Positions 228-40,307 of a DNA stretch of 42,789 nt are shown piece by piece. Under the pieces are notes generated by a model that searched no databases, was not told the origin of the DNA, and worked only from the letters and a program-made list of their open reading frames with translations. Position numbers and translations under genes: made by a program. This DNA comes from Oscillospiraceae bacterium (GTDB lineage Bacteria > Bacillota > Clostridia > Oscillospirales > Ruminococcaceae). The stretch spans positions 1 to 42,789 of the forward strand of contig JAIKWY010000136.1 in assembly GCA_024684395.1 (NCBI GenBank), read 5' to 3'. How positions within the stretch are numbered: the first letter of the stretch is position 1; each line of letters begins with the position of its first letter.

Positions 228-1634
228 ATGAAAAGACGTATTGCTGCGATCCTGTCAGCCGCTGCGCTGGCTGTTCCGATGCTCATCTGTCCGACTGATG
301 CACAAGCATACTCCGTGCAGCCGCTTTCGGCGGAAACGCTGCATTATTATGAGGAATGGAAGGACACCTATCTGAAGACCGACCCGTATGTCTCAGGCGA
401 GCCGCAGTACTATGTGTTCTACGGCGATGAAAGCTATGAAGAAGCGCATACGACTGTAGAAGTGACCGTCTCCGAAGCGCACGGCTACGGGATGCTCATC
501 GCTGCGCTGATGGCCGACTATGACAGCGAAGCGCAGGAGATCTTTGACGGCATGTACCGCTATTATCTGGCGCATCCAAGCCATATTGCGCCCCATCTGA
601 TGGCATGGCAGCAGAGCGACAACGGGCACGAACTCTTTGATTCCAACGGCGCCGACTCCGCAACGGACGGAGACCTCGACATCGCCTATGCCCTGCTGTT
701 GGCAGACACGATCTGGGGTAGTGACGGCGATGTAGATTACCGGAAGGCGGCGGAGCTTGTCATCCATGACATCATGGAATATGACGTCAGCCACGAGGAC
801 GATATCCTTCGGCTCGGCGACTGGGCATATGATGTGGAGGAAGGCGACAAGTACTATACGGCGACCCGTGCTTCCGACTTCATCATACTCTATTTCCCGG
901 TGTTTGCGGATGTGACCGGCGATGTGCGCTGGACGCAGCTCTATGACAACACCTACAGCATCATCAACCATTTCGTAGACAAATATCAGACCGGGCTGCT
1001 GCCGGATTTCATCGTCAAGGATGCATCCGGCGAATGGATCCCCGCACCGGCGAATTTCCTCGAAAACGAAAATGACGGCGTGTATGAATACAATTCCTGC
1101 CGTGTCCCGTGGCGCATCAGCACCGATGCGATCGTCGGCGGGAATCCGGATGCAAAGCGCTTTGCAGAGACCATCAACGCCTTTTTCAAGGAGGAGACCG
1201 GCGGCGACCCCGAGGAGATCATGGCTGGCTACACGCCGGACGGCAAGGCGGTCGCCGACTGGGATGATCTGTGCTTCACCGCTCCGCTGATGCTCTCGGC
1301 AAAGGCAGCGGGCGATACGGGATTTCACGATACAATCCGGCAGGAAGTGCTGGACATCGGGGTGGATTCCTATTTCGGGAACACGATCGCCATGCTCTGC
1401 CTGATCACGGATGACGGCGGCTGGCTGGTGCCGGAGACTGGCAGACCGTCCGGCGATGTGAACGCCGACGGCGTGTCTGACCTGACAGACGTCATTCTGC
1501 TACAGAAGTGGCTCCTCGCCGTGCCGGATACGCATCTTCCGGACTGGAAGGCAGGCGACCTCAACAAGGACGATCATCTGGATATCTTCGACCTCGGACT
1601 GATGAAAAGGGCGCTCTTTGAAAGCAGGAAATAA
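228..1634 (+). CDS. Secreted GH8 endoglucanase/xylanase with C-terminal dockerin
   Basis: This 468-residue secreted glycosyl hydrolase of family 8 probably cleaves beta-1,4 linkages in cellulose, xylan or mixed-linkage glucan. An upstream in-frame ATG at 183 exists, but AGGAGG lies 6 bp before the ATG at 228, and a signal peptide ending near AQA (residue 27) follows directly. GH8 hallmarks are SEAHGYGM (82-89), with Glu83 as the expected general acid, and the family signature ATDGDLDIAYALLLA (145-159). The pattern YNSCRVPWR (288-296) also fits the family. Residues about 409-465 form a type I dockerin with two calcium loops (GDVNADGVSDLTD and GDLNKDDHLDIFD) and the LGLMKR ending, so the enzyme should dock on a cohesin. 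Family assignment is secure; the exact substrate cannot be read from sequence. Confidence 0.93.
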   Translation: MKRRIAAILSAAALAVPMLICPTDAQAYSVQPLSAETLHYYEEWKDTYLKTDPYVSGEPQYYVFYGDESYEEAHTTVEVTVSEAHGYGMLIAALMADYDSEAQEIFDGMYRYYLAHPSHIAPHLMAWQQSDNGHELFDSNGADSATDGDLDIAYALLLADTIWGSDGDVDYRKAAELVIHDIMEYDVSHEDDILRLGDWAYDVEEGDKYYTATRASDFIILYFPVFADVTGDVRWTQLYDNTYSIINHFVDKYQTGLLPDFIVKDASGEWIPAPANFLENENDGVYEYNSCRVPWRISTDAIVGGNPDAKRFAETINAFFKEETGGDPEEIMAGYTPDGKAVADWDDLCFTAPLMLSAKAAGDTGFHDTIRQEVLDIGVDSYFGNTIAMLCLITDDGGWLVPETGRPSGDVNADGVSDLTDVILLQKWLLAVPDTHLPDWKAGDLNKDDHLDIFDLGLMKRALFESRK

Positions 1635-1647
1635 TATATGTATATTC

Positions 1648-1682
1648 AACAGCGGCTGTACCCAAATGATACAGCCGCTGTT
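1648..1682 (+). terminator. Hairpin terminator after the GH8 gene
   Basis: A perfect inverted repeat (arms 1648-1660 and 1670-1682, 9-nt loop) starts 14 bp after the stop codon. No good T-run follows, so termination may be partial; the next gene has its own strong promoter. Confidence 0.6.
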
Positions 1683-1717
1683 ATGTTGCGCCATGTCAGA
1701 AAATGCAACATTTACTC

Positions 1718-1746
1718 TTGACAAAGCCACACGAAAGATGTATAAT
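1718..1746 (+). promoter_or_regulatory. Consensus sigma-A promoter
   Basis: A perfect TTGACA (1718-1723) and a perfect TATAAT (1741-1746) are separated by 17 bp. This is the strongest-looking promoter in the window and serves the dockerin protein starting at 1804. Confidence 0.85.
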
Positions 1747-1803
1747 ATAATTACAAAAACGTTTACGCTTTTTTGCATTTTTATGCAGATTGGAGGAATT
1801 GAC

Positions 1804-4071
1804 ATGAAGACAAGATGGATCGCATTGCTCACATCCAGCCTGATGCTGGCTGCTGCGGCTGGGGTGATGCCTGCACAAGCCGCTGACAAACCCGCAGAGG
1901 ATCCGCTCTTCGGCACGCTGCCCGACTGGGTGTCGACCGATTTTGTGGAGGCGCTCGATTTCCGCAACACCTACGGCAAGACCCATGTGGAGGACAATAT
2001 CATCTGTCTTGTCAGACCGATGATCGATTTCAGGACGGATGACTACAATGTCGAAATTTCCGGTACCATGACCCAGATCAATACCCCCGCCGGCTCAATG
2101 CCGCATATCTATGCGCTCGAGATCCCCGAAAAGCCGGATCCCGAGGACGAGGAGGCAATGGCGGCATACAAGGCGTACTGCGAGAAGCTGGGCAACTATA
2201 CCTACGACTACAGCTTCTTTACATCCTATGAAGGCAGAAAGACCAAGCAAGTCTACGAGGTGTGCCTCTACCGGGTGCTGGAGGGCTATGACCTGAACAT
2301 TGCATGGACGATGAAGGATGACGGCGAGGTGAAGACGACCGAGAAGTTCAGCTTCGAGAACAAGGACGGCACGACCGTCGAAACTGATATGTATGCATGG
2401 CTCCCGGACAGCGAGCCGGAGTTCAACTACTTCCTGGATACCTACAGCAACAGAGCGGCCGTGGTGGGCAATGCCGCACAGGGCGTCTATGTGGCCTATG
2501 CGGCTTCGGTGAATGCCAGCACGGGCGCTTCCCTGAAAATGGAGCAGTCCGGCGAAGGCAAGCTCAAGGAAGCGTTCACCTCCAGCTGCAACCGTGTTGA
2601 GCTGATCCCCCTGGATGGCGGCGGCAACAACTACATGATCCTCTATGCGCCGACTGCGGACGGCATGGTCGATGTCACCTGGACGCTCGGCAGAGAATGG
2701 AGCGACGAGGATCCGTTTGAGTTGGTGGAGCGCAGATATGAGATCTCCGACAACTGCACGCTGATCACGCCGATCAACAGGATCGACGGTCCCCAGACCA
2801 TCATCACGCTGCGTGATGCGGATACGGGCAATGTGATCGACCTCATGAACGTCTGCTATATCCAGGAGGAAGTGCACGGTCAGCCCTACGCCAGCAACCT
2901 GTACTATATGCAGACAAATCCCTGCTCGTTCAAGAAGGAGGATGTGGGTGTCTTTGATCCGACGCTCAGCTACTATGTCCAGCTCGGCTCGGATGCCGGC
3001 TGGTATGTCGATCCGAAGTTCGAGATCACTTCACAGAAGGACGACATCACGGAGGTCACCGGTACCCTGAAATGGGCGCCGAGCGGCGATGCGGACGGCA
3101 ACCGTACCTTCGGTCTGACGGACATCATCCTGCTGCAAAAGTATCTGCTCGGTCTCCAGAAGGCAGACATTGCTGACCTCGATGCCGTGGATTTCTTCCG
3201 TGACAATGTCATTGATGTATTTGACCTCGGCATGATGAAGCGTTCGCTGTTCAACAAGAAGAAGGCAGGCTATGTAGAGCCGAATGTGCCCTCCAGGTAC
3301 GGCGTTCCGATGTATGTGATCGCAGACGGTCTGGAGCTCCATGCAGGTCCCGATGATGCGACTGACGTCCTCGGTGTCATCCCGGAGTATGCGTCACTCA
3401 CCGAGCTTGGCTATATGAAGGACAATGACATCTGGGTCTACACGCAGTATCGTGGGACTTACGGCTGGATCCGCATTATGGACGATGAGGGAAAAACGGT
3501 GGTAGATTTCGAGATGGCTGCGGATAAGCCCGTCATCTATCTGTACCCCGAAGAGGAGACAGATGTGCATGTGGAGCTTGACCTGACCGGCATGGATCTC
3601 TCCACGACCTACCCGAGATACAACAACGGCTGGGATGTCACGGCATATCCGGACGGCTCCCTCCTGAACAAGGCGGACGGCACCCACCACAGATACCTCT
3701 TCTGGGATGCCGTGAACTGCCGCACGAGATACGACCTCTCCAAGGGCTTCTGCGTGGCAGGTGCCGACACGGAAGGCTTCCTCAAGGAGAAGCTCACCTA
3801 CATGGGTCTGACCGAGGACGAAATGAACGAGTTCATCGTCTACTGGCTCCCGAAGATGGAGCACAACGCCTTCAACCTCATCACCTTCCAGGGCGATGCC
3901 TACACAGATGCCGCAAAGCTCACCATCACGCCCGAGCCCGACAGTCTCTGCCGCATCTTCATGGTCTATGTACCGCTTGAAGAAGCTGTGGAGATCGAGC
4001 CGCAGGAGCTCCCGACCTTTGAACGCACGGGCTTTGCCGTTGTGGAATGGGGCGGCTCTGAACTCGGATGA
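1804..4071 (+). CDS. Secreted protein: unknown N-domain, internal dockerin, SH3-like segment, KPVIYLYPE module
   Basis: A 755-residue secreted protein. GGAGG at 1792-1796 selects the ATG at 1804 over upstream in-frame ORF extension, and a signal peptide ends near AQA (about residue 26). Residues about 30-425 match no family I recognise. A type I dockerin lies in the middle (about 428-485; GDADGNRTFGLTD and FRDNVIDVFDLGMMKR) rather than at the C-terminus. It is followed by an SH3-like segment (about 500-570, pattern ELHAGP...YGWIRI) and a C-terminal domain starting KPVIYLYPEEETDVHVELDL (575-594). The last two parts are closely repeated in the protein at 12983-14464. The dockerin implies cellulosome attachment; no catalytic residues can be assigned. 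The second dockerin loop is degenerate (FRDN replaces the usual DxNxD start). Confidence 0.88.
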   Translation: MKTRWIALLTSSLMLAAAAGVMPAQAADKPAEDPLFGTLPDWVSTDFVEALDFRNTYGKTHVEDNIICLVRPMIDFRTDDYNVEISGTMTQINTPAGSMPHIYALEIPEKPDPEDEEAMAAYKAYCEKLGNYTYDYSFFTSYEGRKTKQVYEVCLYRVLEGYDLNIAWTMKDDGEVKTTEKFSFENKDGTTVETDMYAWLPDSEPEFNYFLDTYSNRAAVVGNAAQGVYVAYAASVNASTGASLKMEQSGEGKLKEAFTSSCNRVELIPLDGGGNNYMILYAPTADGMVDVTWTLGREWSDEDPFELVERRYEISDNCTLITPINRIDGPQTIITLRDADTGNVIDLMNVCYIQEEVHGQPYASNLYYMQTNPCSFKKEDVGVFDPTLSYYVQLGSDAGWYVDPKFEITSQKDDITEVTGTLKWAPSGDADGNRTFGLTDIILLQKYLLGLQKADIADLDAVDFFRDNVIDVFDLGMMKRSLFNKKKAGYVEPNVPSRYGVPMYVIADGLELHAGPDDATDVLGVIPEYASLTELGYMKDNDIWVYTQYRGTYGWIRIMDDEGKTVVDFEMAADKPVIYLYPEEETDVHVELDLTGMDLSTTYPRYNNGWDVTAYPDGSLLNKADGTHHRYLFWDAVNCRTRYDLSKGFCVAGADTEGFLKEKLTYMGLTEDEMNEFIVYWLPKMEHNAFNLITFQGDAYTDAAKLTITPEPDSLCRIFMVYVPLEEAVEIEPQELPTFERTGFAVVEWGGSELG

Positions 4072-8792: not shown

Positions 8793-9680
8793 ATGGGCAG
8801 ACTGATCTCTGAGAAATACGCCGCATGGGAGCAGGAATGCGAAGCCCGCTTCCGGGATCTGAAAGCGAACGAAGAAGCGCTGAACCGCATCTTCATTGAC
8901 ATCTACGGCTTACAGGACGAGCTGACCCCGGAGGTCGAGGAAAAGGACGTCACCGTGCGCCGTGCCGGCCTCGGGCGGGAGATCCGGAGTCTCATCTCCT
9001 ATGCGGTCGGATGCCTGTTCGGGCGGTATTCTGTGGATGTGGAGGGGCTCTGCTATGCAGGCGGCGAGTGGGATGCGTCCAAGTACAGAACGATCATCCC
9101 GACCACGAGCAACGTCCTCCCAATATGTGATGACGAGTATTTCGAGGACGATCTGACTGCCCGTGTGATCGAGTTTATAGCAAAAATCTACGGCGATGAC
9201 ACGCTCGAAGAGAACCTGAAATTCATCGCCGATGCCCTCGGCGGCAAGGGTACGCCCCGGGAGGTCATCCGGAATTATCTGCTGACCGGCTTCTTTGCCG
9301 ATCATTGCAGGATCTACCAGAAGCGCCCGATCTACTGGCTGTTCAGCTCCGGCAAAAAGCACGGATTCAAGGCGCTTGTGTACATGCACCGCTGGCAGGG
9401 AACGACCGTTGCGACCGTCCGCACCGACTATGTGCATGAGCTGCAGGAGCGCTACCGGACACAGCTATCGCTCCTTGCCGATCAGATGCAGACAGCTCCG
9501 GCAAGTGATCATGTCAGGCTGAAAAAGCGGCAGGAAAAGCTCGTAGAGCAGCTTGCAGAGCTCAATGCCTATGAGGAAAAACTGCATCCTATCGCCAATC
9601 AGATGCCGGGCATCGACCCCGATGACGGCGTGAAAGCGAATTATGCGAAATTTGCGAATATTTTAGAGAAGATCCGCTGA
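8793..9680 (+). CDS. Stand-alone C-terminal domain of BREX methyltransferase PglX
   Basis: A 295-residue protein matching only the C-terminal part of PglX (BrxX), the roughly 1200-residue adenine methyltransferase of BREX phage defence. Diagnostic segments, from my knowledge of the family, are LNRIFIDIYGLQDELTPEV, ISYAVGCLFGRYSVD, EVIRNYLLTGFF, KRPIYWLFSSGKK and the ending IDPDDGVKANYAKF. No methyltransferase motif (NPPY or SAM-binding loop) is present, and no other pgl/brx gene adjoins it. It is not a random fragment: it has a sigma-A promoter, an AGGAGG site and a clean ATG. A coiled-coil-like stretch lies around 213-260. It may be a decayed BREX remnant, a target-recognition or partner-binding domain used on its own, or an inhibitor of PglX. 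Identity is strong; function is unknown. Confidence 0.82.
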   Translation: MGRLISEKYAAWEQECEARFRDLKANEEALNRIFIDIYGLQDELTPEVEEKDVTVRRAGLGREIRSLISYAVGCLFGRYSVDVEGLCYAGGEWDASKYRTIIPTTSNVLPICDDEYFEDDLTARVIEFIAKIYGDDTLEENLKFIADALGGKGTPREVIRNYLLTGFFADHCRIYQKRPIYWLFSSGKKHGFKALVYMHRWQGTTVATVRTDYVHELQERYRTQLSLLADQMQTAPASDHVRLKKRQEKLVEQLAELNAYEEKLHPIANQMPGIDPDDGVKANYAKFANILEKIR

Positions 9681-9826: not shown

Positions 9827-9860
9827 GCCATGAATGATCGACAACAGGGGGGGATTGATC

Positions 9861-11411
9861 ATGAGATTCAAAAGACCGATCGCTTTCACCGCTGCGCTGC
9901 TCGTACTGGCAGGCGGTATCGGATCGTATTCCGATTCACTGCACGACAAAGCGCTGCGAAGCTACGCAAACCAGTTCGGTGATATCAACGGTGACGGCGA
10001 AGTCAACGCATCGGACGCAACGCTCATTCTGAGCTACTCCGCCTATCGCGGGACAGGCGGCGATCTGACGCTCGAAGCCTGGCTCCGTGGCAATGGCTAT
10101 GAGCCGGAGATCATGACCGAAGAACCAACAGACACAACTGAAACGTCCACCGATGAAACCGATCTGACTGATGGATCCGAAGAAATGACGGAAGCAGCTG
10201 AGATCGACCTTGAGAACAGCAACGATACGCTGACCGTCCTGGGCTGGAACATTGACCAGGTGCAGTACACGGATCATTATGCAGCGCACTACGCAGAGCT
10301 GGGCATTGATGTCGATTTCAAGGCGATCGCTTACATCGGCTACGAGATGCCGGAACAGCTCCAGACCTATGTGAACGGCGGCGAGGATGCCGATCTGTTC
10401 ATGGTGGAGCCTGACTGGATGTGGCAGGTCGCAGGAGATGACGGGCTCGCTATGCCCCTCTCCGAGCTGGGCATCACCGAAGCAGACTATGCCGATGCAT
10501 ATCCGTATGCCGTAGAGATCGGCAAGGACCAGAACGGTGAACTGATGGCAGCGGCAGCAGATATCTGCCCGGGCTTCTATGCCTATAACGCCGACCTTGC
10601 TGCCGAATACCTCGGCGTCTCCACACCGGAGGAGATGCAGGCAAAGGTCTGCGACTGGCAGACCTTTGAAGCGACCGCCGAGGAGCTGAAACAGGCATCC
10701 GGCGGCAGCGTGACCATCACAGCAACGATCGACGGCATGTGGAAAGCCTTCTCCACCAACACCGACTACAGCTGGGTCAATGACGGCAATATCGTGACCG
10801 ATCAGGCGGAAGTCTTCCTGAATATAGCAAGACGATTCAGCGGCAACGGCTATGTAGATCCGGAGCTCAACCAGTGGACAGATGACTGGTTCGACCTGAG
10901 CCAGAGCGACGACACGATGGGCTTCTTCTACTCATCCTGGACACTGTATCCGAGCGGCAGCTACGCCTATCCGAGCGGCAACTGGAAGATCGTCAAGGGT
11001 CCGGATGCGTTCTTCTGGGGCGGCAACTGGTTCTGCGCCGCATCAACATGCAATTCCAAGGCAGCTGCGGCAGACTTTCTCCGCACCTTCACGATAGATA
11101 AGGATCGGATGCAGGACTTCATGCTCGAACAAAGCGATCTGTTTGGCGACGGCTATTTCATCAGCAACAACCAGAAGGTCATCGCCGCACTCGAAGGCAG
11201 CAGCGACCTCCTCGGCGGTCAGGATCCGCTCCCCGTCATGGACGAAGTGGCAAAGAGCATCCGTTGGGACAGCACCAAAGCAAGCCCCTATGACCTCGAC
11301 ATCCGCAGCCAGTTCCCGTTCTCTTATAGCATCCGGTATGATGAGCCGGATGATGAACTCATCCAGTTCTACAAAGACTGCGTCCATTGCAGCTACGAAG
11401 AGCTGCAATAA
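9861..11411 (+). CDS. Secreted ABC-type sugar-binding protein with half-dockerin and no lipobox
   Basis: A 516-residue extracellular solute-binding protein, probably of the carbohydrate-binding family 1 type, from residue about 128 to the end. Its pattern (TLTVLGWNIDQVQY, GEDADLFMVEPDW, GFYAYNADLAAEYLGV, GYVDPELNQWTDDWF) fits sugar-binding proteins. Residues 40-60 (GDINGDGEVNASDATLILSY) are one dockerin/EF-hand repeat, followed by a Thr/Glu/Asp linker. The signal peptide contains no cysteine, so it is not a standard lipoprotein. A G-rich site lies 7 bp before the ATG at 9861; nine extra in-frame codons upstream are not needed. No permease or ATPase gene is adjacent. The half-dockerin might form a homodimeric dock or simply be a calcium-binding stalk. 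Confidence 0.85.
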   Translation: MRFKRPIAFTAALLVLAGGIGSYSDSLHDKALRSYANQFGDINGDGEVNASDATLILSYSAYRGTGGDLTLEAWLRGNGYEPEIMTEEPTDTTETSTDETDLTDGSEEMTEAAEIDLENSNDTLTVLGWNIDQVQYTDHYAAHYAELGIDVDFKAIAYIGYEMPEQLQTYVNGGEDADLFMVEPDWMWQVAGDDGLAMPLSELGITEADYADAYPYAVEIGKDQNGELMAAAADICPGFYAYNADLAAEYLGVSTPEEMQAKVCDWQTFEATAEELKQASGGSVTITATIDGMWKAFSTNTDYSWVNDGNIVTDQAEVFLNIARRFSGNGYVDPELNQWTDDWFDLSQSDDTMGFFYSSWTLYPSGSYAYPSGNWKIVKGPDAFFWGGNWFCAASTCNSKAAAADFLRTFTIDKDRMQDFMLEQSDLFGDGYFISNNQKVIAALEGSSDLLGGQDPLPVMDEVAKSIRWDSTKASPYDLDIRSQFPFSYSIRYDEPDDELIQFYKDCVHCSYEELQ

Positions 11412-12982: not shown

Positions 12983-14464
12983 TTAGGATCCGATCTTAAC
13001 GCCGCCCCATTCCACAACGGTAAAGCCGCTGCGCTCAAAGGTCGGCAGCTCCTGCGGCTCGATCTCCACAGCCTCTTCAAGCGGGATATATGCCATGAAG
13101 ATGCGGCATTCGGTGTCCGGCGCAGGTGTGATGGTCAGCTTGGCGGTATCGGTGTAGGCATCGTCCTGGAATGCGATCAGGTTGAAGGCATTGTGCTCCA
13201 TCAGCGGCAGCCAGTAGACGATGAACTCGTTCATCTCGTTCTCGGTCAGGCCCATGTAGGTGCGCTTCTCCTTGCGGAACTGCTCCGTATTGCATCCGGC
13301 AACACAGAAGCCCTTCGAGTAATCAAATCTCGTGCTGCAATTCACGCTGTCCCAGAACAAGTATCTGTGGTGTGTCCCGTCTGCCTTGTTCAGCAGCGTG
13401 CCGTCCGGGTAGGCGGTCACATCCCAGCCGTTATTGTACTTCGGATAGGTCGTGTTGAGCTCCGATTCCGTCAGATCCAACTCCACATGCACATCCGTCT
13501 CCTGCTCAGGATACAGATAGATGACGGGCTTTGCGGGAGCCACCTCATAGATGACCGTCCGGTTGCCATAGTCATCAACTAATTTGATCCAGCCAGACTG
13601 CCCGTTGTATTCCGTAAACAGCCATTCGTCATTCCCTTCCTGATAGCCCATCTCCCTGAGTATCACGCCCTTTGGGAGGTACGTGATCCTGCGGGTCGTT
13701 TCGCTCGGACCAGCATAGAAAGTCAGCTTATCCTTCATAACAGAGAAGATCGTACCAAACTCGACCTGAACATCCGGTCTGATATAATTATCCCGTTGTT
13801 TGAGGATCCGCCGCTTCATCAGACCGAGGTCAAATACATCGACCTCGCCGTCCATATTCAGATCGGCAGCCCAGAAGTAGCCGTTCTGCTCCGCAGGCAC
13901 ACCGAGCAACCAGCGCTGGAGCATGATGACATCGGTCGTGCCGGTATCGCCGTCACCGTCAATATCGCCGTCCGGCACTGCAACATCGCCCTCCAGCGGG
14001 GGGAGTATCTCATCTGTCGTCTCTTCGATGATTTCATCAGGCGGCAGAGGGATGCCCGCTGTCGGCGGGAGCTCCTCATCTGTCGGATCTTCCGGCGGCA
14101 TCGTTTCGCCCTCGACCGGCGGAATGGTTGTCGTCGTAGTCGTTTCGGAAGGATCCTCTGCCATGTAGGTGCCGATCGGGTCGGTCATACGGTATTCCTC
14201 GGTGGTCGTCCATTCCGGATCTTCCGCCATCATGGTGCCGATGGGCTCCGTCTGTTCATTCACAGGCGTTGTGTACGGATCCTCCGCGATCATCGTGCCG
14301 ACGATCGGCTCGTCACAGGTCGTTGTGGTCGTTTCGCCGTTCTGGGTACGCTCCCCTGCTTCCTGCTCCTTCGCAGACGAGACCGCAGCCGTTCCGGCAA
14401 CAGCGACAGTACCGACAGCCACCGAAGCCAGCAGTGCAGAGATCTCCTTGGTGAATTTTCTCAT
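12983..14464 (-). CDS. Secreted dockerin protein with AEDP repeats, SH3-like segment and KPVIYLYPE module; candidate radical SAM substrate
   Basis: A 493-residue secreted protein. Its N-terminus (MRKFTKEISALLASVAVGTV) is a signal or leader-like segment. Next comes a Thr/Glu/Pro-rich region holding three copies of (V/I)GT(M/Y)xAEDP at 55-63, 75-83 and 97-105, with a lone Cys50 just before the first. Proline-rich linkers lead to a type I dockerin (about 166-220; GDIDGDGDTGTTD, DLNMDGEVDVFDLGLMKRR). An SH3-like segment (about 235-305) and the KPVIYLYPE module (312 to end) follow. The last two parts are near-copies of those in the 1804-4071 protein. The start overlaps the radical SAM gene's stop by 4 bp (ATGA), with AAAGGAGG upstream inside that gene. 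Modification of the repeat region by that enzyme is inference from coupling. Confidence 0.88.
   Translation of the reverse strand: MRKFTKEISALLASVAVGTVAVAGTAAVSSAKEQEAGERTQNGETTTTTCDEPIVGTMIAEDPYTTPVNEQTEPIGTMMAEDPEWTTTEEYRMTDPIGTYMAEDPSETTTTTTIPPVEGETMPPEDPTDEELPPTAGIPLPPDEIIEETTDEILPPLEGDVAVPDGDIDGDGDTGTTDVIMLQRWLLGVPAEQNGYFWAADLNMDGEVDVFDLGLMKRRILKQRDNYIRPDVQVEFGTIFSVMKDKLTFYAGPSETTRRITYLPKGVILREMGYQEGNDEWLFTEYNGQSGWIKLVDDYGNRTVIYEVAPAKPVIYLYPEQETDVHVELDLTESELNTTYPKYNNGWDVTAYPDGTLLNKADGTHHRYLFWDSVNCSTRFDYSKGFCVAGCNTEQFRKEKRTYMGLTENEMNEFIVYWLPLMEHNAFNLIAFQDDAYTDTAKLTITPAPDTECRIFMAYIPLEEAVEIEPQELPTFERSGFTVVEWGGVKIGS
14150..14302 (-). repeat. Three imperfect coding repeats GT(M/Y)xAEDP
   Basis: The repeat units lie at 14276-14302, 14216-14242 and 14150-14176 and encode VGTMIAEDP, IGTMMAEDP and IGTYMAEDP. 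They are separated by 11- and 13-residue Thr/Glu-rich spacers. Synonymous differences between copies suggest that the peptide, not the DNA, is conserved. Confidence 0.75.
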
Positions 14465-15441
14465 GATACCTTACCTCCTTTTTCTTTGGCAATTCCTTCA
14501 AGAACCGTTAATATCTGAACCTGCTCCTCCATGCAGGCTGCTTCCGAAATATCACGGACCGTCCCGGTGGTCGCCATCTTCCTGCACGCACAGGAATTGC
14601 GGCAATAATCGGCGATCTCACAGCCTTCGCAGCGCTCCGAACGCATGGAATAATCCGGATGTGCCGCTCGTGCCTTGTCCGCCTGGATCCCTGCTATCAG
14701 ATCGCCGCAGCAGAATGCCGGGATGTTCTGGAACTGTACACAGGGATAAAAGCTGCCGTCCCAGTTGATGAACAGCTTCTTTTTGCAGATCTCGCAGGTG
14801 CTGCGCTTCTGGTTCAGGATGTACTTCCGCTTGACAGCAAGCTCATACACGAACAGATCCTGGATCCCGGCGATCTTCTGCCATTGCTCCCGCATCAGGT
14901 CGCCGAAGCTGTCCGGATCATCCGGGACAAGAAAGGCATCCATCGCCGCAGAGACCTTCTTGACGCCCATTTCTTTCAGATACAGGATATTGTCATACAG
15001 ATGCGGCAGGCTCCGCTGTGTATACACGAGCTGCACCAGCGTTTCCGGCTGATACCGCAGCAGAAGCTTCAGGTGCTCGTCAAGCAGCGCCCTGTCTGCG
15101 CCTCGGTCATCACAGTCTGCCCCGTCATGGGACATGTTGATGATGATGCCCTTATCCGCACACCATGCGATGAACGCCTCATCGAGCAGCGTGCCGTTCG
15201 TCGTGATGACAAACTGTTTGGCTTTCAGGTTCTCACAGAAGTACATGACCTCGTTTTTATAGAGCAGCGGTTCCCCGCCGAAGAGATAGACCGTGCCCGC
15301 ATCGTTGCGGCGGTTGATGAACTCCGTGACCTTGTGCATGATCTCCGGTGTGATGCTGCCGTATGCCGTATTCAGATGCCGTTCATAGCAGTAGCTGCAA
15401 TGCAGATTGCATTTATTTGTCAGACTGATCGTGTAATCCAC
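14461..15441 (-). CDS. Radical SAM/SPASM peptide-modifying enzyme
   Basis: A 326-residue radical SAM enzyme, presumably cytoplasmic. The SAM-binding 4Fe-4S motif is Cys11-x3-Cys15-x2-Cys18 and the SAM-contacting GGEP is at 55-58. The C-terminal SPASM domain fits its consensus: Cys219-x9-Gly-x4-Cys234, Cys271-x2-Cys274-x5-Cys280-x3-Cys284, then Cys303, ligating extra 4Fe-4S clusters. SPASM enzymes include sulfatase-maturating enzymes and RiPP peptide maturases, so a peptide or protein substrate is expected. The start codon is GTG at 15441, with only a weak G-rich site. A good promoter sits 85 bp upstream. Its 4-bp overlap with the dockerin/repeat protein makes that protein the likely substrate; the chemistry cannot be predicted. 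No RRE domain, transporter or peptidase gene is adjacent. Confidence 0.9.
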   Translation of the reverse strand: MDYTISLTNKCNLHCSYCYERHLNTAYGSITPEIMHKVTEFINRRNDAGTVYLFGGEPLLYKNEVMYFCENLKAKQFVITTNGTLLDEAFIAWCADKGIIINMSHDGADCDDRGADRALLDEHLKLLLRYQPETLVQLVYTQRSLPHLYDNILYLKEMGVKKVSAAMDAFLVPDDPDSFGDLMREQWQKIAGIQDLFVYELAVKRKYILNQKRSTCEICKKKLFINWDGSFYPCVQFQNIPAFCCGDLIAGIQADKARAAHPDYSMRSERCEGCEIADYCRNSCACRKMATTGTVRDISEAACMEEQVQILTVLEGIAKEKGGKVS

Positions 15442-30480: not shown

Positions 30481-33400
30481 TTATGGATTCGCATTGTATT
30501 CGAGATAATCACCTTTGCGTTTATAGTGATTTCCGTTTGCATCTACTAGATCAACGCCATTAAGTGCGTTTGCTAAGTTGGAGTTGTTCTTGAATATATT
30601 GTTATTTTGCCATGCGTTATCTTTATTCCAAGACCATGTTGCGAATGCCTTCTTAAATTCCTGAGCAGTAATTGCAGTGCAATTCTGGAACATGTTCTCG
30701 ACATTGTAGATGTTGGAGAAGTCACCGGAGAGATTCAGATGCTCAAGAGCAATACAGTTAGAGAACATCTGCTTAGCCTGCGCCGACTGATATGTCTTGT
30801 CCGAATTCGGTGCATAATAATTGACATACGGGGCAGCGGAGGTATCAATGTCCATGGTGACGGTTGTCAGATACTGGCAATCAAAGAACATTCGGCTCAT
30901 GTACATATAGTCAGAAGACTTATATGTCCTGTTCAGCTTAAATTCAGTGATATGCGTACCCTCAAACATGTAACCTGTCATCGTCATACCGGACAGATCC
31001 CAGTCATACATGCCGCTCACATCTTCAAGCGTAGAATACTTATTGAAGAGCTTAGGCGTGTTTCTATAATCTACGGAGTGGAACTCGGCATAAACAGACC
31101 CCTTTGAAGGCTCCTGAGTATCTCTGTCAACCGTGTACCAGAATACCTCTGTACCGATCGCATAGAATCTGATCAGATCAGGATAAGGACTTCCCTCAGT
31201 ATAGTTCCCTGCATAGGAATCATAGGTAAGCCTGTCATTTTCCGCAGCAAGTTCCCATCCATCCGCATTGCCTTCCTTGAACGCTGTGATGTTGGTAGCG
31301 TTCACACTTGACAAACTGCCGGTCACGCACGGATTATTGCTGTTCCAGATACCGTTGTTAGAGAATGCCGGTGTATTAGCGACCATGATCACTCTTGCTT
31401 TGAGCGGTCTGACAGTGATCTTTTCCACCTGCGCCTGGAACGTGAAGGAGTTGAGCAGATCAATATGCTCTGCCATATCCCGCATCTTCTCCGTTTTGAG
31501 TGCATCCGTCACATAATTCGGATACGTCCCGTTGAAGATGAATGCCTGGAGTTCCTCTTCGTTCTTGAACAGCACCAGATCCTGGTTGCTGTCGAGCATC
31601 GGTCTGCCGTCACTGTCGAGCAGATACCAGCCGGACATATCATAGTTTTCGGGATCGTTGACCTTCAGGTTGGAGGTATATGCGTCGTTCTCCATCGTCT
31701 TGGTGACTGTTCCGTCATCCGCATCCTTCTTGTAGATAAGTGCTACGGAAGTGACATCCTGCAGCTTATTATCGGTATTTGCATACGGGAAATAGGTCTT
31801 GTTCGTCACATCATTACGCAGGACAACACGCTTCCGGACATCGGCTTTACGTTCACTGAACGTCAGTGCCAGTTCGCCGCTGACCATACTGGTGTCCTCA
31901 ATGTCATATGCATTGAAGTTCGGATCCTCGCTGTAGCCGACGTCGATCGAGATCGACTGTCCTGCAAGTGCATCAGGGTCTTCCACCGTGACATACAGCT
32001 TGCCTGTTGACGGATCATAGCTGACTGCCGTGATCGGCGATTTCAGAGCGGTACTGAACCGGATCCGGGACAGATCTTCCGCTTCAAACTTCTTCTGCTT
32101 CTCGGTGTTATAGCTGAGCACCGCCTCGAAATCGTCATTTCCTGCCAGCAATGCTGCCTTGAGGTCGATCTCGTAGGTGTTGTTCGTATGCCCTTCCACC
32201 TGCACAAGCGGTTTGTAGAGCGGCTTGAACGCTGTGATGTACTCCTGTCCGGGGAGCTGGTTATCTGCGAACGAAACATGGCTGAAACTGTCATAGCGCT
32301 CGATGTCATTGGTGTACTTGACGTGGAACGTCACCATTTCGCCGAAGGTCGAATCACCGCCTGACAGATCGCAGAACGCCGTCCAGGGCGCATTGGCAGA
32401 ACTGCCGTTGATGTCATACTTGTCGTTGTCGCCCGAAACGAGTGTCGAGGTCGGCGTGTTCGTGCCGGCGCTCTTGACCTTGACCGTGCCGCTGCCGGTC
32501 ACCATCTCCAGATCAACACAGCTGTAGCGGGAGACCGGGAGCTCCTCGATCAGGTACTGTCCGACATCGACATTGGTCATCGCCGTGCCGAACGTGTTCG
32601 GGTCGGAGAGATGCACAGCCAGTGTGTATTCCCTGCCGTCCTTTGTGTAGTTTTGGGTGCCCTTGGTGTAGTCCACCGTTTCACCGGCTTCCGTTTCCTT
32701 CAGACCATAGATCCGGAACAGGAAGGTCGGATCACCGTATGCTGCGAAATAGCTTGCATCCGGGATCTCCTTGTCGATGATGATCGCTGCCTGTGCCTTG
32801 GGATCCTCGCATTTCAGGAACTGGTTGTCGCAGTTATAGGCGTTGACGGTAAAGACAACGTCATCTGCAAGACCATAGCCCTCCGGCGGGACAGTCTCAT
32901 GGAAGTAATAGGAATCCCACTCGAGACCACGCACGACGAATCGTCCGCCTTCGTCCGCTGTCACATAGGTCAGTGTCACGCATGAGAGCTCTTCTTGCGT
33001 GATGTCACGGTATTTCTTCATGGCATCGTCATAGACCTGACTTCTGTCCTTGGATACCGCATAATAAGTCAGACGTGCATCGTTGGGATCGAGGCTGTTG
33101 CCATAATCTGCCTCAAATGCGCTGTTTCCCGAAACACCCACGACTCTGCCTCTGTTGCTCTCTTCATAGCTGAGCGTCACAGCATAGCCGTTTTCGAGCT
33201 GAAATTCGATATGGCTCTTGTCGATGACCGTGAAGCCGGTCACGAGGAACTCCTTTGTGGAAACGGCGCCGGTCAGTCCGCCGACACGCAGCATCGGTAC
33301 AGATGCCACCTGCTCATTCGTCTTTGTGTACAGATTGAACTGCGCACCGAAGAGCTTGGTATGCTCGTCGTTGACGGCTTCCTTTGCCTGCTTGTAGAGC

Positions 33401-36400
33401 CAGATCTTGCCGTAGGTCTTGTCATTCGTCATGTTGACCTCGATGGTCGAACCGACGTTGTTGACATCGACCACAAAGAATTGCGGCGTAGTATCCTGCT
33501 GATAACCGGAAGGCGCCTTGACTTCGTAGAAGTAGTACACGCCCCAGTCAAGTCCGCTGACAGTCTCCGTGGCGCCGAGAGCCGGGTCAAAGCTCGTTTT
33601 CAAGCCCTGCTTGATGACTGTATCGACACCCGCCTTCGGCTTGCCGTCCTCGAAATGATCGGAAAGGATCACATCATCCTGAGTCAGGCTGAGCTTGCTG
33701 AGCCAGTCCTTACGCTCTGCCGCCGTAAGGACATTGATCTCCGCCTGGGTCAGACCAAAATGGCTGATGAGAGCGGCATTTTCTTCTGCTGTCGTAAATT
33801 CCACGCGGTACAGCGTGAAATTTCCGTCCGTCAGACCAAGGTTGTTCGCATTTTTCTTCAGCAGCCTTGCTTCGCCTTCTTTGCGTTCATCACGGTGCAT
33901 GGCGTAGAAGGTGTGATAGACGACCTCTTCCTCGCCATCGTCGTTCAGACGTGTGGTAGAATTGGCTGCCAGCGTTTCAGCTGAAAGAACGATGATCTGG
34001 TTATTCTGCTCATGCTTCGTGTCCATTTCTGTCCACGTTTCCCAAAGGGCACTGTCGTTGTTCCACTTGTAGCCCTTGGGCGGCTTTGCCTCGTAGAGCA
34101 GATAGGTGCCGAACGGGAGATCCCGGATGCTCGCCTGACCGGAGATGTCGGTCTCGACCGTTCTTACAAGCGTCCAGCAAGCTGTGAAGTCCGTGGAGGT
34201 CGTGTTGCCTCTTGCATTGTCTGCGATCTCCTTGGCATGGGCAAGCTGTACGTCATCATTGAGCCGGAATACGTAATAGGTCGCATAGCCGAGGTAGTTC
34301 TCGGGGTTGACTTCCTCCGTCTTGTTGAGCTCGATGTTGCTGAGCACTTCGTCATCGTACAAGCTCAGGATGTCGAGGGTATCGGTCTGCCCCTCCCCTT
34401 CACCGCCTGCTGTTCCGAAGCGGAGCTGTCTGTTCCCGTCGATCGTGGAAGCCGATACACGGAAATAGTGCTTGTCGGTATCCAGCAGGAAGCCGGTCGG
34501 TGCCTTGACTTCTTGCAGATAGTACACACCATAGCCGATGTTATCCACAAGGATCTGACCGGCCTTATCGCCGATCTTCTGACTTTGCAGTTCAGAGGTC
34601 AAGCCGCTGCTGCCGGTAAGACCGCTGTAGATATACGTCTGTTTGGTCGCATCATAGCTGAAATAGAGCTTGGACTCGGAGCCGTCGCTTTCCACATAGT
34701 AGATGCTGTAAACGGCGTCGCTGACGAGCGTTTTGCCGTCTACGCCATCGACCTTCTGGAACTTGGCAGAAGCCTGCTCGATTGGTTCGTCCTCGACAAC
34801 GATGCGTCCGGTCTTCACGAGCTCCTCTGCTGCGATCCTTGAAAAGCCTGTTTCATTCTGGATCTCAAATACAGGCAGATGGGTATTCTTAAAGAACTCC
34901 GGCACATCCTCAAACAGCAGATAATAGCTGCTCTGATCATCCAGTCCGGTCACATTCAGAACACCGGAGCCGTTGGGACTGATCGTGGTCTTGTCATCCG
35001 AATTGGACGAGAGCGTGTAGTTTCCGTTATCTCCAGTGAAACGGCAGAGAATATCGTTGGCGGAGATCTCCTCGCCGACCTTCTTGTAAACATGATAGCT
35101 TACGCCGCTTGTCTGCGGAGACTTCCGGAAAGCCCTGAGCGAGATCGAGCTCTTGTCTGCCACGGAGAAGGAATAGGCATCCGTATCGTTCTTGGCAGCA
35201 GCAACATAATAGGAACCAGCCGGCAGATCGGAGAGCGTAACGCTTCCGCTGCTGAAGGTAAAGCTGTCCTCGTTGCCCTCTTCGGGATCGTAGACATAGG
35301 CGCCCCGCTCGTTATCATAGCGGAGGTGATCGACGGGCTCGCCGTCAGGATCATATACATGGAACACCTGGCTGCTATCTACCGGCGTCTTGCTGCCGTA
35401 GATGTCGGGATAGTCGTTGTATTCGACATTGTTGACGATCAGATATTCCCGTGCCAGTTCTTCCGGCGTTTTCAGTCCGACGGAATAATAATAGACAGCA
35501 TTGTCATCTGAGATCACACGGAAACGGTAGGCGCCGTCATCAAGCTCATAGCCGAGCGGTGCCTTGGTCTCCTTGTAATAGAAGATGCCGGGCGCAAGAT
35601 CCAGACGCAGGATGCCGCTGAGATCGACCTCCATGTCCTTCATGGACTTCTGGACGTTCTGCGCAAGGCGCTTGTTGAAATCGAAGTACTTGACGATGTC
35701 GGTCTCCTGACATGTGCCGCTGTTGTATACCGTGAACTGCGCACCTGTCAGACGCTTGCCGCTCTTGGAGCTGACCTTTTCCAGCTCGACCGAGTGGTTC
35801 AGGATGACCATTGTGCGGTTGCTGACGGAGTACATCGGGAATTCAACGCCCAAGTTATCTTCACCCTGTGCAAAGACATGGGTGTCGTTATAGGTGGCAC
35901 GGTTGTTGATGACGTGCTCGATTTCGCTGGAATTGACGATCTCCGGCGCACGCATGTTCAGATCAGCTGTGAGCTTCAGATACTGATCTGGCACGACATA
36001 ATCGCCCTTGAACAGGATCGCTACGGCATAGACGTTCTCTTTGCCTATCAGCCATTCCGAACCGCTCTGCGTGGCTTTCTTCCAGCCATCCTCGAGGTTC
36101 ATGATCTTGTTCTTTAAGGTATTGTAATAGCCAAGATCCAGATTGTACTGGTCGATCTGCTCCTGGGTCAGCTCGTCATCGCCGCCGGCGGAGGTTTCGC
36201 CGTACTTCTGGAAATTCTCGACCGCTGTTCTGATCGTCTCGTTGGTATGGCGGTAGTCAAACGGATCTGAGATGTTCTGGTTATCCGTGACATCGTTCCG
36301 CATCAGATAGTACACTTCCGGCACATAGGAACCGTCAGGATAGCTGTCGGCATCGAAGCTGACCGATCTGACCTCGCCAAGCCAGTTCGCATCCTCACAA

Positions 36401-39327: not shown

Positions 39328-39355
39328 CTGAGCCGCCCCTTTCCTCTGAAATTTA

Positions 39356-39371
39356 CTGTACCCCGGTACAG
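39356..39371. promoter_or_regulatory. 16-bp palindromic operator candidate before the giant SpaA gene
   Basis: CTGTACC-CC-GGTACAG is a perfect 7-bp dyad with a 2-bp centre, 29 bp upstream of the ATG at 39327 and just before its ribosome site. A repressor or RNA hairpin here could control the 8.8-kb gene. I cannot place a convincing promoter in 39372-39530. Confidence 0.5.
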
Positions 39372-39390
39372 CATCTGAACTGCGTAAATG

Positions 39391-39427
39391 CAAAAACGCA
39401 CCCAATTCCCCCAAAGGATCAGGTGCG
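39391..39427 (-). terminator. Weak terminator-like hairpin between sortase and giant gene
   Basis: CGCACC/GGTGCG arms (39397-39402 and 39422-39427) enclose a 19-nt loop and are followed by TTTTTG on the - strand. The stem is only 6 bp, so it may attenuate rather than stop transcription from the sortase gene. Confidence 0.35.
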
Positions 39428-39530: not shown

Positions 39531-40307
39531 CTATTCAATTATCCCTGCCACGATCCCTCTTGCATCGTCGTACTCATAGGTACATGTGGAGAGGAGCAGC
39601 AGATGCAGATCTGACCTTTCGCACAGATCGTCAGCGGTCACGCCCGCTGTGTGATCGGCAGCTTCCAGAAGCTGTGTCAGATAGGCTTTTTTATCATCAT
39701 CTGTAAGCAGGTCGGTGCGGTATACCTGCGACGTGCTCGGCACATTCAGGTAGGCAAAGAACACGACCCTGTGAACACCGTCATGCAGCGTGAGCGTCCC
39801 TTCCGGATGCGCCTGCATGAACGCTTCGTCCTTGAACAGCGCAATATCCGCAAACATACGCTGTTTTGTCATATGATGCGCATACACGATGGAATTGAAC
39901 CCGGAAAGATCCGCAGCACAGCGGCAGTCCAGAAACGGACACCCGAGCTCGTAATTGTACTGACCGTCAAACCCGTTGTGCAGATAGAAGTCATTGTCCG
40001 CCGCCTGCGCTATGGGATGGTCGATGTGGGTGCCGGGAATGGTGATCCAGCCTGCCACGGAGGGATTGATCTCCGCTGCTTTCAGGAGCGGATCCTCCGG
40101 TGCATCTGCATCGGGAGCCGTTTCCGGCGTTTTTCCGGCAGGTCCCTGCGGAACGGGTCGGATGGTATCGAACATGCTCCGCTGTTCGCTGTCCGCAGCC
40201 GCAAGCTCCTGCTCCGGACGTATCACATCACCGTAATACCGCCATCCGCAGTAGACAAGTGCCACCAGGAGCACGATCACGATACCGGTCAGGATGCGTG
40301 TTTTCAT
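39531..40307 (-). CDS. srtB: Class B sortase
   Basis: A 258-residue membrane-anchored cysteine transpeptidase that attaches sorting-signal proteins to the cell wall or joins pilin subunits. The N-terminal anchor is at about 6-24. Class B signatures are NPSVAGWITIPGTHIDHP (81-98), the histidine of YAHHM (His144), LLLSTCTYEYDDAR with Cys242 and Arg250, and the class B helix insertion around 150-170. The ATG overlaps the preceding surface-protein stop by 4 bp (ATGA), and its ribosome site lies inside the lysine-rich tail of that gene. Its probable substrate is that anchored protein (SPLTG near its C-terminus). Confidence 0.93.
   Translation of the reverse strand: MKTRILTGIVIVLLVALVYCGWRYYGDVIRPEQELAAADSEQRSMFDTIRPVPQGPAGKTPETAPDADAPEDPLLKAAEINPSVAGWITIPGTHIDHPIAQAADNDFYLHNGFDGQYNYELGCPFLDCRCAADLSGFNSIVYAHHMTKQRMFADIALFKDEAFMQAHPEGTLTLHDGVHRVVFFAYLNVPSTSQVYRTDLLTDDDKKAYLTQLLEAADHTAGVTADDLCERSDLHLLLLSTCTYEYDDARGIVAGIIE

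Follow-up and report, generated by a model that had tools for sequence, protein, structure and literature searches.

Why should the gene for a radical SAM enzyme of a peptide-modifying type overlap that for a secreted, dockerin-bearing protein? The question is raised by a stretch of 42,789 nucleotides from an Oscillospiraceae bacterium (assembly GCA_024684395.1, contig JAIKWY010000136.1; this whole stretch is called the window, and coordinates are counted along it), in which a radical SAM/SPASM enzyme is encoded at 14461..15441 on the minus strand, and its proposed substrate, a secreted dockerin protein of 493 residues, directly behind it at 12983..14464 on the same strand. An earlier note on this DNA had proposed that the enzyme modifies three AEDP-containing repeats of the dockerin protein. 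The best reading of the comparisons reported here is that the two genes are a post-translational modification cassette in Ruminococcus, and the evidence suggests that the radical SAM enzyme chemically alters the repeats of its partner, with a glycine, and not AEDP, as their constant residue.

The enzyme, 326 residues long with a GTG start, matched Pfam Radical_SAM at 55.3 bits (cut-off 29.5). Its radical SAM cluster motif, CX3CX2C at residues 11-18 (Cys 11, 15 and 18; 15388..15411, minus strand), was invariant in 14 aligned clade sequences, the window's own included, and so were eight cysteines of the SPASM region C216-C303 (216, 219, 234, 271, 274, 280, 284 and 303; 14533..14796, minus strand), the spacing of which fits what we take to be that of anaerobic sulfatase-maturating enzymes (anSMEs). 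Both cysteine patterns are complete, as the earlier note had stated, and the stop codon of the enzyme gene shares an ATGA with the start of the dockerin gene (14461..14464, minus strand), ahead of which lies AGGAGG (14474-14479, minus strand). Cys245 and Cys286 are likewise invariant in the 14 sequences and surplus to the eight auxiliary ligands, and are of interest because of this invariance and because radical SAM epimerases rely on a critical cysteine (PMC8326336, section 9). Since only ten residues precede the first cluster cysteine, the enzyme has no room for an N-terminal RRE, the recognition element of ribosomally synthesized and post-translationally modified peptides (RiPPs).

An AlphaFold model of the enzyme was confident (mean predicted local distance difference test score, pLDDT, 91.6; 14 sequences), and the best solved folds were those of SPASM maturases, the closest being 5why, anSMEcpe, ChlB and, at rank 16, TigE. 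By profile, the best match in the PDB was 5wgg (5.7e-22), with anSME at 5.8e-14 and TigE weak (E 2e-5); 5wgg and 5why, which we take to be CteB, were thus best by both profile and fold, and differ from the window enzyme in being longer (453 residues, with the match beginning at residue 102) and in being thioether formers according to the title of the PDB entry. The best NCBIfam match among the matches listed was PapB (NF047865), which was covered nearly over its full length at 96.2 bits, far from the equivalog cut-off of 340 bits, and which was also matched by all 14 aligned clade members. No NCBIfam family reached its own cut-off among the best 25 of 78 matches. PapB and CteB are therefore the closest systems by profile, with scores far below membership cut-offs, and the closest functional precedent is TvgB, discussed below.

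To follow the pair beyond the window, 84,980 species genomes were covered by a pattern-led scan, which returned 66 loci. Fifty-two of these (L091-L142) were 46-80% identical over nearly the whole length, and the rest were L143, a 30-residue fragment at 77% identity, and 13 loci at 36% or less. The 52 clade loci lie in records labelled Ruminococcus or in metagenome-assembled genomes labelled Oscillospiraceae, Clostridiales, Clostridium and, in one case, Alistipes, with Ruminococcus or Oscillospiraceae as the label of most; records labelled Ruminococcus with the enzyme include R. flavefaciens ATCC 19208, MA2007, YL228, Y1, YAD2003, YRD2003, XPD3002 and MC2020. On the same strand, a leader-bearing gene came next in 50 of the 52 loci, with its start -16 to +95 nt from the enzyme stop (at -3 in 28 of these 50 relatives), so that the pairing proposed from a single locus was borne out. 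Wherever the contig does not end, this gene continues into Gly-centered repeats and a dockerin; contig ends cut the partner in L091 and L098, and later in the gene in L093, L119 and L125. When any downstream open reading frame (ORF) was surveyed, the same protein plan was seen at 13 of 17 clade loci. Among the other four, L073 ends inside the leader, L077 lay beyond the search bounds and was later recovered, and L083 and L084 showed none.

Closer to the source organism, a sample of 396 genomes of the family held 14 loci at 46% identity or more, in 12 genomes; any enzyme match at E 1e-20 was found in 21 of the 396, the remaining matches being 25-35% identical (five candidates were scored per genome where a genome had more than five). 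Because this sample and the species-genome collection overlap, their counts are not independent. Within the genus, 4 of 38 genomes carried a close copy (78-100% identity), and the organism's own genome has a single enzyme of the clade, the one at 14461-15441. A second radical SAM family at about 25-35% identity (e.g., L044 and L085-L089) was found in other surroundings, with no leader protein in the downstream stretch, and was treated as unrelated. At L143, from position 1677, roughly the first 30 enzyme codons are joined without a break to the tail of a dockerin-like stretch; this looks as if a single deletion had removed the cassette, or as if the contig had been misassembled.

Neighboring genes were compared at 43 of the 52 clade loci, using ORFs of at least 100 residues. 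The partners grouped with other dockerin proteins in one ORF component, which was present at 39 of the 43 loci, and apart from this component no neighbor family occurred at more than five of them, so no third conserved gene was detected on this scale. Since enzyme and partner stay adjacent while the other neighbors change, the two genes appear to move as a cassette. The absence of an adjacent transporter or protease, to which the earlier note had drawn attention, was also seen here: by look, none was present among the eight window genes scanned with Pfam, which include one solute-binding protein and one 117-residue ORF without a match, and none is widely conserved. The same claim for an RRE partner is carried over as it stood, no search aimed at an RRE having been made.

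The N terminus of the partner is far better conserved than the rest of that protein. The leader, or signal peptide, of the window protein (MRKFTKEISALLASVAVG...VSSA, residues 1-31; 14372..14464, minus strand; cleavage site placed by eye) follows the pattern M-x-K-F-(TK)-x-I. Across 51 partners (the 50 relatives and the window's), M1, K3, F4 and I8 were invariant and T5, K6, L11 and A13 were conserved in at least 90%, and mean pairwise identity (1176 pairs) was 0.825 over the first 12 residues, versus 0.329 after the first 28 aligned positions. The leader-like character noticed in one sequence is thus a property of the whole set. Glycoside hydrolase family 9 (GH9) enzymes of related genomes showed the reverse: in two sets of 7 and 5 proteins, identity was 0.36 and 0.30 for the initial 12 residues and 0.82 and 0.85 for the protein as a whole (starts were assigned with a simple rule, and Pfam confirmed two of these proteins as GH9). 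An AxA-like signal peptidase site was found in all 51 partners with a permissive pattern, in keeping with the Sec-type signal first assigned to the window protein.

In the genomes searched, the leader pattern is also confined to the neighborhood of the enzyme. Searched at the DNA level in the 396 family genomes, the leader pattern gave 11 matches, all 11 directly behind an enzyme, and it matched once in the organism's own genome; no protein with this leader but without the enzyme, the kind of homologue that the earlier note had asked about, was found among the family genomes. In G223, the twelfth genome with the enzyme, the leader reads MRKFTNEI, a variant outside the reach of the pattern. With one mismatch allowed, the 38 genus genomes gave five leader matches, four of them behind the enzyme; the fifth meets a stop codon and does not encode a leader protein. 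Judged from its sequence, the partner's N terminus has the appearance expected of a Sec signal that also serves as a recognition leader.

Between leader and dockerin lies a linker with six Gly-centered repeats (13973..14317, minus strand), which is the region proposed to be modified. The three GT(M/Y)xAEDP repeats described previously are present (GTMIAEDP, GTMMAEDP and GTYMAEDP, with Gly at residues 56, 76 and 98), and three further, degenerate copies (Gly at 119, 137 and 159) bring the number to six, with Gly codons starting at 14299, 14239, 14173, 14110, 14056 and 13990 on the minus strand. AEDP itself did not hold up as the conserved element, since relatives read GTMMAAE, AGVPLPPDE or IGTQV, and what is kept approximates PP-x-[AIVME]-G-[TVDE]. 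When the linkers' Gly contexts were aligned on the glycine (428 distinct contexts, or 435 with slightly different bounds), Pro was enriched at -4/-3, Leu at -2 and Ala, Ile, Val and Met at -1, followed by Val, Asp or Thr at +1, Met or Val at +3, Pro at +4/+5 and Asp at +6; Thr and Pro were strongly depleted at -1. The residue after the anchor PP[LTMVFIA]x was Gly in 102 of 115 places, which identifies Gly as the constant residue and AEDP as one lineage's version of what lies downstream.

The pattern ATGGCNGARGAYCC, used with AEDP as the key motif, occurred at 30 places among the matches listed, in 13 of 38 genus genomes. By eye, 12 of these are GH9-like, 4 are elongation factor Ts-like, 2 are the window's own and 12 are others (two of the GH9 and one of the elongation factor Ts cases were confirmed with Pfam). 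At three places (L009, L018 and L022), MAEDP lies in or beside linkers rich in Thr, Glu and Pro that belong to other proteins, L022 being a dockerin protein, and the genomes concerned (G007 and G024, which are 77% and 88% complete) had no enzyme match at E 1e-15. AEDP was dropped as a defining element.

The Gly-centered motif, in contrast, separates the partners from other dockerin proteins. At least three motif counts in the 130 residues before the dockerin were found in 34 of 35 scored partners, whereas 1 of 20 scored dockerin ORFs from the organism's own genome reached this number on either flank. For this contrast, a hidden Markov model built from three dockerin proteins of the window was used, which retained 35 of the 51 partners and 20 of 30 fetched controls, the controls having been drawn from the at least 149 dockerin matches of that genome (150 of 312 candidates scored). 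Scored without the dockerin model, 47 of 49 partners of at least 150 residues had three or more motif counts, and five other window ORFs with a dockerin or dockerin-like stretch had 0-2.

The dockerin is the third constant element. That of the window protein (type I; 13802..13969, minus strand) matched Pfam Dockerin_1 at 34.2 bits (cut-off 22.9), which upholds the original assignment, and the same model was matched in 37 of 51 partners; two of the remainder are cut off before the dockerin and 12 have a paired calcium loop by eye (in L119 only its first half is visible). By simple patterns, the partner dockerins were sorted into 23 of an FDLxxMK type, 5 of an MQxxxNP type and 9 of a DKY type, with 14 unsorted, and these three types resemble by eye groups 6, 1 and 4 of the R. 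flavefaciens FD-1 dockerin survey, as far as its available text describes them (PMC2930009). The window partner's dockerin resembles by eye those of the window's GH8, GH5 and GDSL-lipase-like proteins. Beyond the dockerin, the window protein has an SH3-like stretch (13583..13726, minus strand; Pfam SH3_3 15.7 bits, below the cut-off of 27) and a C-terminal KPVIYLYP domain without a Pfam match (12995..13531, minus strand), the structure model of which was unusable (pLDDT 49.5). The KPVIYLYP string occurs in 3 of 51 partners, and complete partners span 165-611 residues, 26 of 46 having 290 or fewer; the C terminus is thus optional, and leader, repeats and dockerin are the constant set. Another window protein (1618-4071, plus strand) shares the SH3-like and KPVIYLYP C terminus, with 69% identity there, and by eye also shows a dockerin-like stretch, which had no Pfam match at E 1e-4; it has no leader, repeats or adjoining clade enzyme.

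Taken together, these results make it very probable that the partner is a substrate of the enzyme at all, and we consider it reasonably probable that its X-Gly repeats are modified before Sec export and displayed through the dockerin. Such a pathway would begin in the cytoplasm, where the SPASM enzyme would recognize the partner while it is nascent or unfolded, with the MxKFTKxI leader as the probable recognition element. The 5'-deoxyadenosyl radical would then abstract a hydrogen from the Gly of the X-G-T/V/D/E repeats or from a position beside it, and a Cys-independent change would be installed at several repeat sites. Sec would export the modified partner, signal peptidase would remove the leader, and the dockerin would place the modified linker on the cellulosome or on a cell-surface scaffold. 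Our first choice for the chemistry is a change at the backbone C-alpha, either epimerization or an ether or C-C cross-link to a neighboring Thr; Cys-free precedents exist for epimerization and for a Thr ether cross-link (PMC8326336, sections 9 and 12). The arrangement of a maturase gene, a fixed leader and a variable repeated core follows RiPP logic, with a full secreted protein as the product. A conserved leader and a variable repeated core beside the maturase gene are found, as in a RiPP precursor, and the short peptide with a dedicated protease or transporter is not, the partners being of the size given above.

Several observations weigh against this interpretation. The 50 of 52 count depends on partners picked out by an expression in which K3 and F4 of the leader are fixed. 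Its two exceptions, L137 and L138 (the loci surveyed above as L083 and L084), are paralogues at 46-47% identity without an adjoining partner; a regular pair is present elsewhere in the same genomes (L132 and L131). The Pfam SPASM model reached 18.0 bits in the window enzyme, below its cut-off of 21.5, and the SPASM assignment stands on the cysteine pattern and the fold. PapB and CteB, the nearest profiles, are thioether formers. Because the repeat expression was written after the partners had been seen, the comparison with other dockerin proteins is a contrast and not a blind test, and because the repeats are no more constant than the dockerin and the leader, the choice of the repeats as the site rests on analogy. 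The residue before the Gly is variable, so that no single chemistry is obvious. Cohesin matches were found in all 15 enzyme-bearing genomes and also in 20 of 28 hand-picked enzyme-free ones, which makes the link to cohesins one-sided, in that they do not predict the enzyme. The modification itself, its site and its chemistry are inferred. At L137 and L138 (5001-5951), the opposite strand carries a large membrane-protein-like gene, MMPL-like by eye.

The alternative that survives best, though we consider it unlikely, is that the site of action on the partner is the leader or the dockerin, the repeats being a plain spacer, or a repeat for glycosylation or binding. The leader is present in every partner, as is a dockerin, partly by eye, in every one that is not cut off, and the linkers are rich in Thr, Pro and Glu like ordinary linkers. 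However, the partner dockerins fall into clearly different classes, and the organism's own genome sets its at least 149 dockerin matches against one clade enzyme; the Gly motif, moreover, is kept across very different linker compositions and is seldom seen in the dockerin proteins scored as controls.

Cyclopropane formation on an aliphatic residue before the Gly, with a loss of 2 Da per site, would be a chemistry like that of TvgB or TigE, and appears improbable as an account of the repeats. According to the available part of the published account (PMC9062424), TvgB of Halomonas anticariensis acts several times on the Cys-free TVGG repeats of TvgA, converting Val to cyclopropylglycine, and is active on short synthetic peptides of four repeats. 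The window's pair resembles this system in joining a putative peptide-modifying radical SAM enzyme to a repeated, mostly Cys-free X-Gly motif with several candidate sites per chain, and the SPASM-type enzyme and the presence of TigE among the structural matches also speak for such a reaction. The two differ in that Val precedes the Gly in TvgA and position -1 is variable here, mostly Ala, and in that the described TvgA locus has dioxygenase and peptidase/transporter genes, where a secreted dockerin protein without such conserved genes is found here; the likeness was drawn without the TvgB sequence. Among the Gly contexts, Ala is the commonest preceding residue (0.27), Ile or Val precede in only about 24%, and Glu (0.09) and Met (0.08) do so less often. 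Since Ala stands before the Gly in about a quarter of the copies, cyclopropylglycine is unlikely to be the general product. TigE, the substrate repeats of which contain I-G, is distant, with 472 residues (PDB 8vpo) against 326 and the weak sequence match noted above.

It is highly unlikely, in our view, that the enzyme serves another substrate, such as a sulfatase or an unlinked peptide, and is merely co-transcribed with the dockerin gene. The two orphan paralogues would fit such a role, as would the fold, which is close to that of anSME (4k37), an enzyme also close in size (370 residues). anSMEs modify whole proteins before export and are not known to have an RRE. On the other side, adjacency is kept while other neighbors change, and the leader pattern was found only with the enzyme. 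NCBIfam sulfatase_rSAM gave 47.2 bits, far below its cut-off of 349.45, and the sulfatase-type target (CxPxR-like, sought as [CS]x[PA]xR) was present in 0 of 51 partners; an unrelated substrate such as a sulfatase was what the earlier note had named as a possible refutation.

Thioether formation of the ranthipeptide or sactipeptide type is very improbable: PapB, a multi-site maturase as described, and 5wgg/5why are the best matches and 22 of 49 linkers with a dockerin boundary hold Cys, but the other 27 are Cys-free, 14 of the 22 have a single Cys (two close relatives show nine), the PapB cut-off is far away, and PapB requires, in the text available, a Cys-Xn-Asp/Glu motif that most linkers here lack (PMC9413430). 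Aromatic cross-links (of the pyrroloquinoline quinone, streptide or cyclophane type) and spliceotide chemistry were set aside, since Tyr (in 39 of 49 linkers, absent from 10) and Trp (in 17, absent from 32) have no fixed place in the repeat.

Elsewhere in the window, a solute-binding protein matching SBP_bac_8 (9834-11411, plus strand) carries, right behind its signal peptide, what seems to be half a dockerin (Dockerin_1 21.3 bits, narrowly short of the cut-off). A 295-residue ORF (8793-9680, plus strand) aligns with the BREX-1 PglX model in the C-terminal part alone (E 9e-110; 368 bits against a cut-off of 500) and is apparently a stand-alone fragment. A surface-protein-like ORF of 2977 residues with four SpaA-type domain matches (30481-39414, minus strand) has behind it an ORF that is sortase-like by eye, without a Pfam match at E 1e-4 (39531-40307, minus strand).

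The cassette is a SPASM-type maturase with an unusual, protein-sized, cellulosome-directed putative substrate, and in the titles and abstracts listed from the openly licensed PMC literature, subscription papers lying outside it, nothing was found on a dockerin protein modified by a radical SAM enzyme. The FD-1 survey reports 222 dockerins and 118 dockerin proteins with unknown regions, and its available text makes no link to radical SAM enzymes, with "SAM" as a word occurring 0 times (PMC2930009). The report on the extracellular proteome of R. flavefaciens 007 discusses modification of pilin, and modification of dockerin proteins goes unmentioned in the part available (PMC3672088). More tentatively, and with some doubt, we suggest that the linker of a cellulosome protein may be rewritten at many X-Gly sites by a new radical chemistry independent of Cys and of any aromatic partner. 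On that bolder proposal, because the minimal product consists of leader, repeats and dockerin and nothing else, the modified segment would itself be the displayed payload, and the protein a protein-scale, surface-docked relative of the RiPPs. Should our preferred reading be true, that the repeats are modified and displayed, it would represent a radical SAM modification of a cellulosome component, for which none was found in the openly licensed literature. It would also mean that an enzyme of 326 residues from a SPASM-type family modifies peptide sequence at multiple sites independently of Cys, acting on a large Sec-exported protein by way of a leader that is the signal peptide, and it would supply a biochemical function for part of the large set of R. 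flavefaciens dockerin proteins that lack one.

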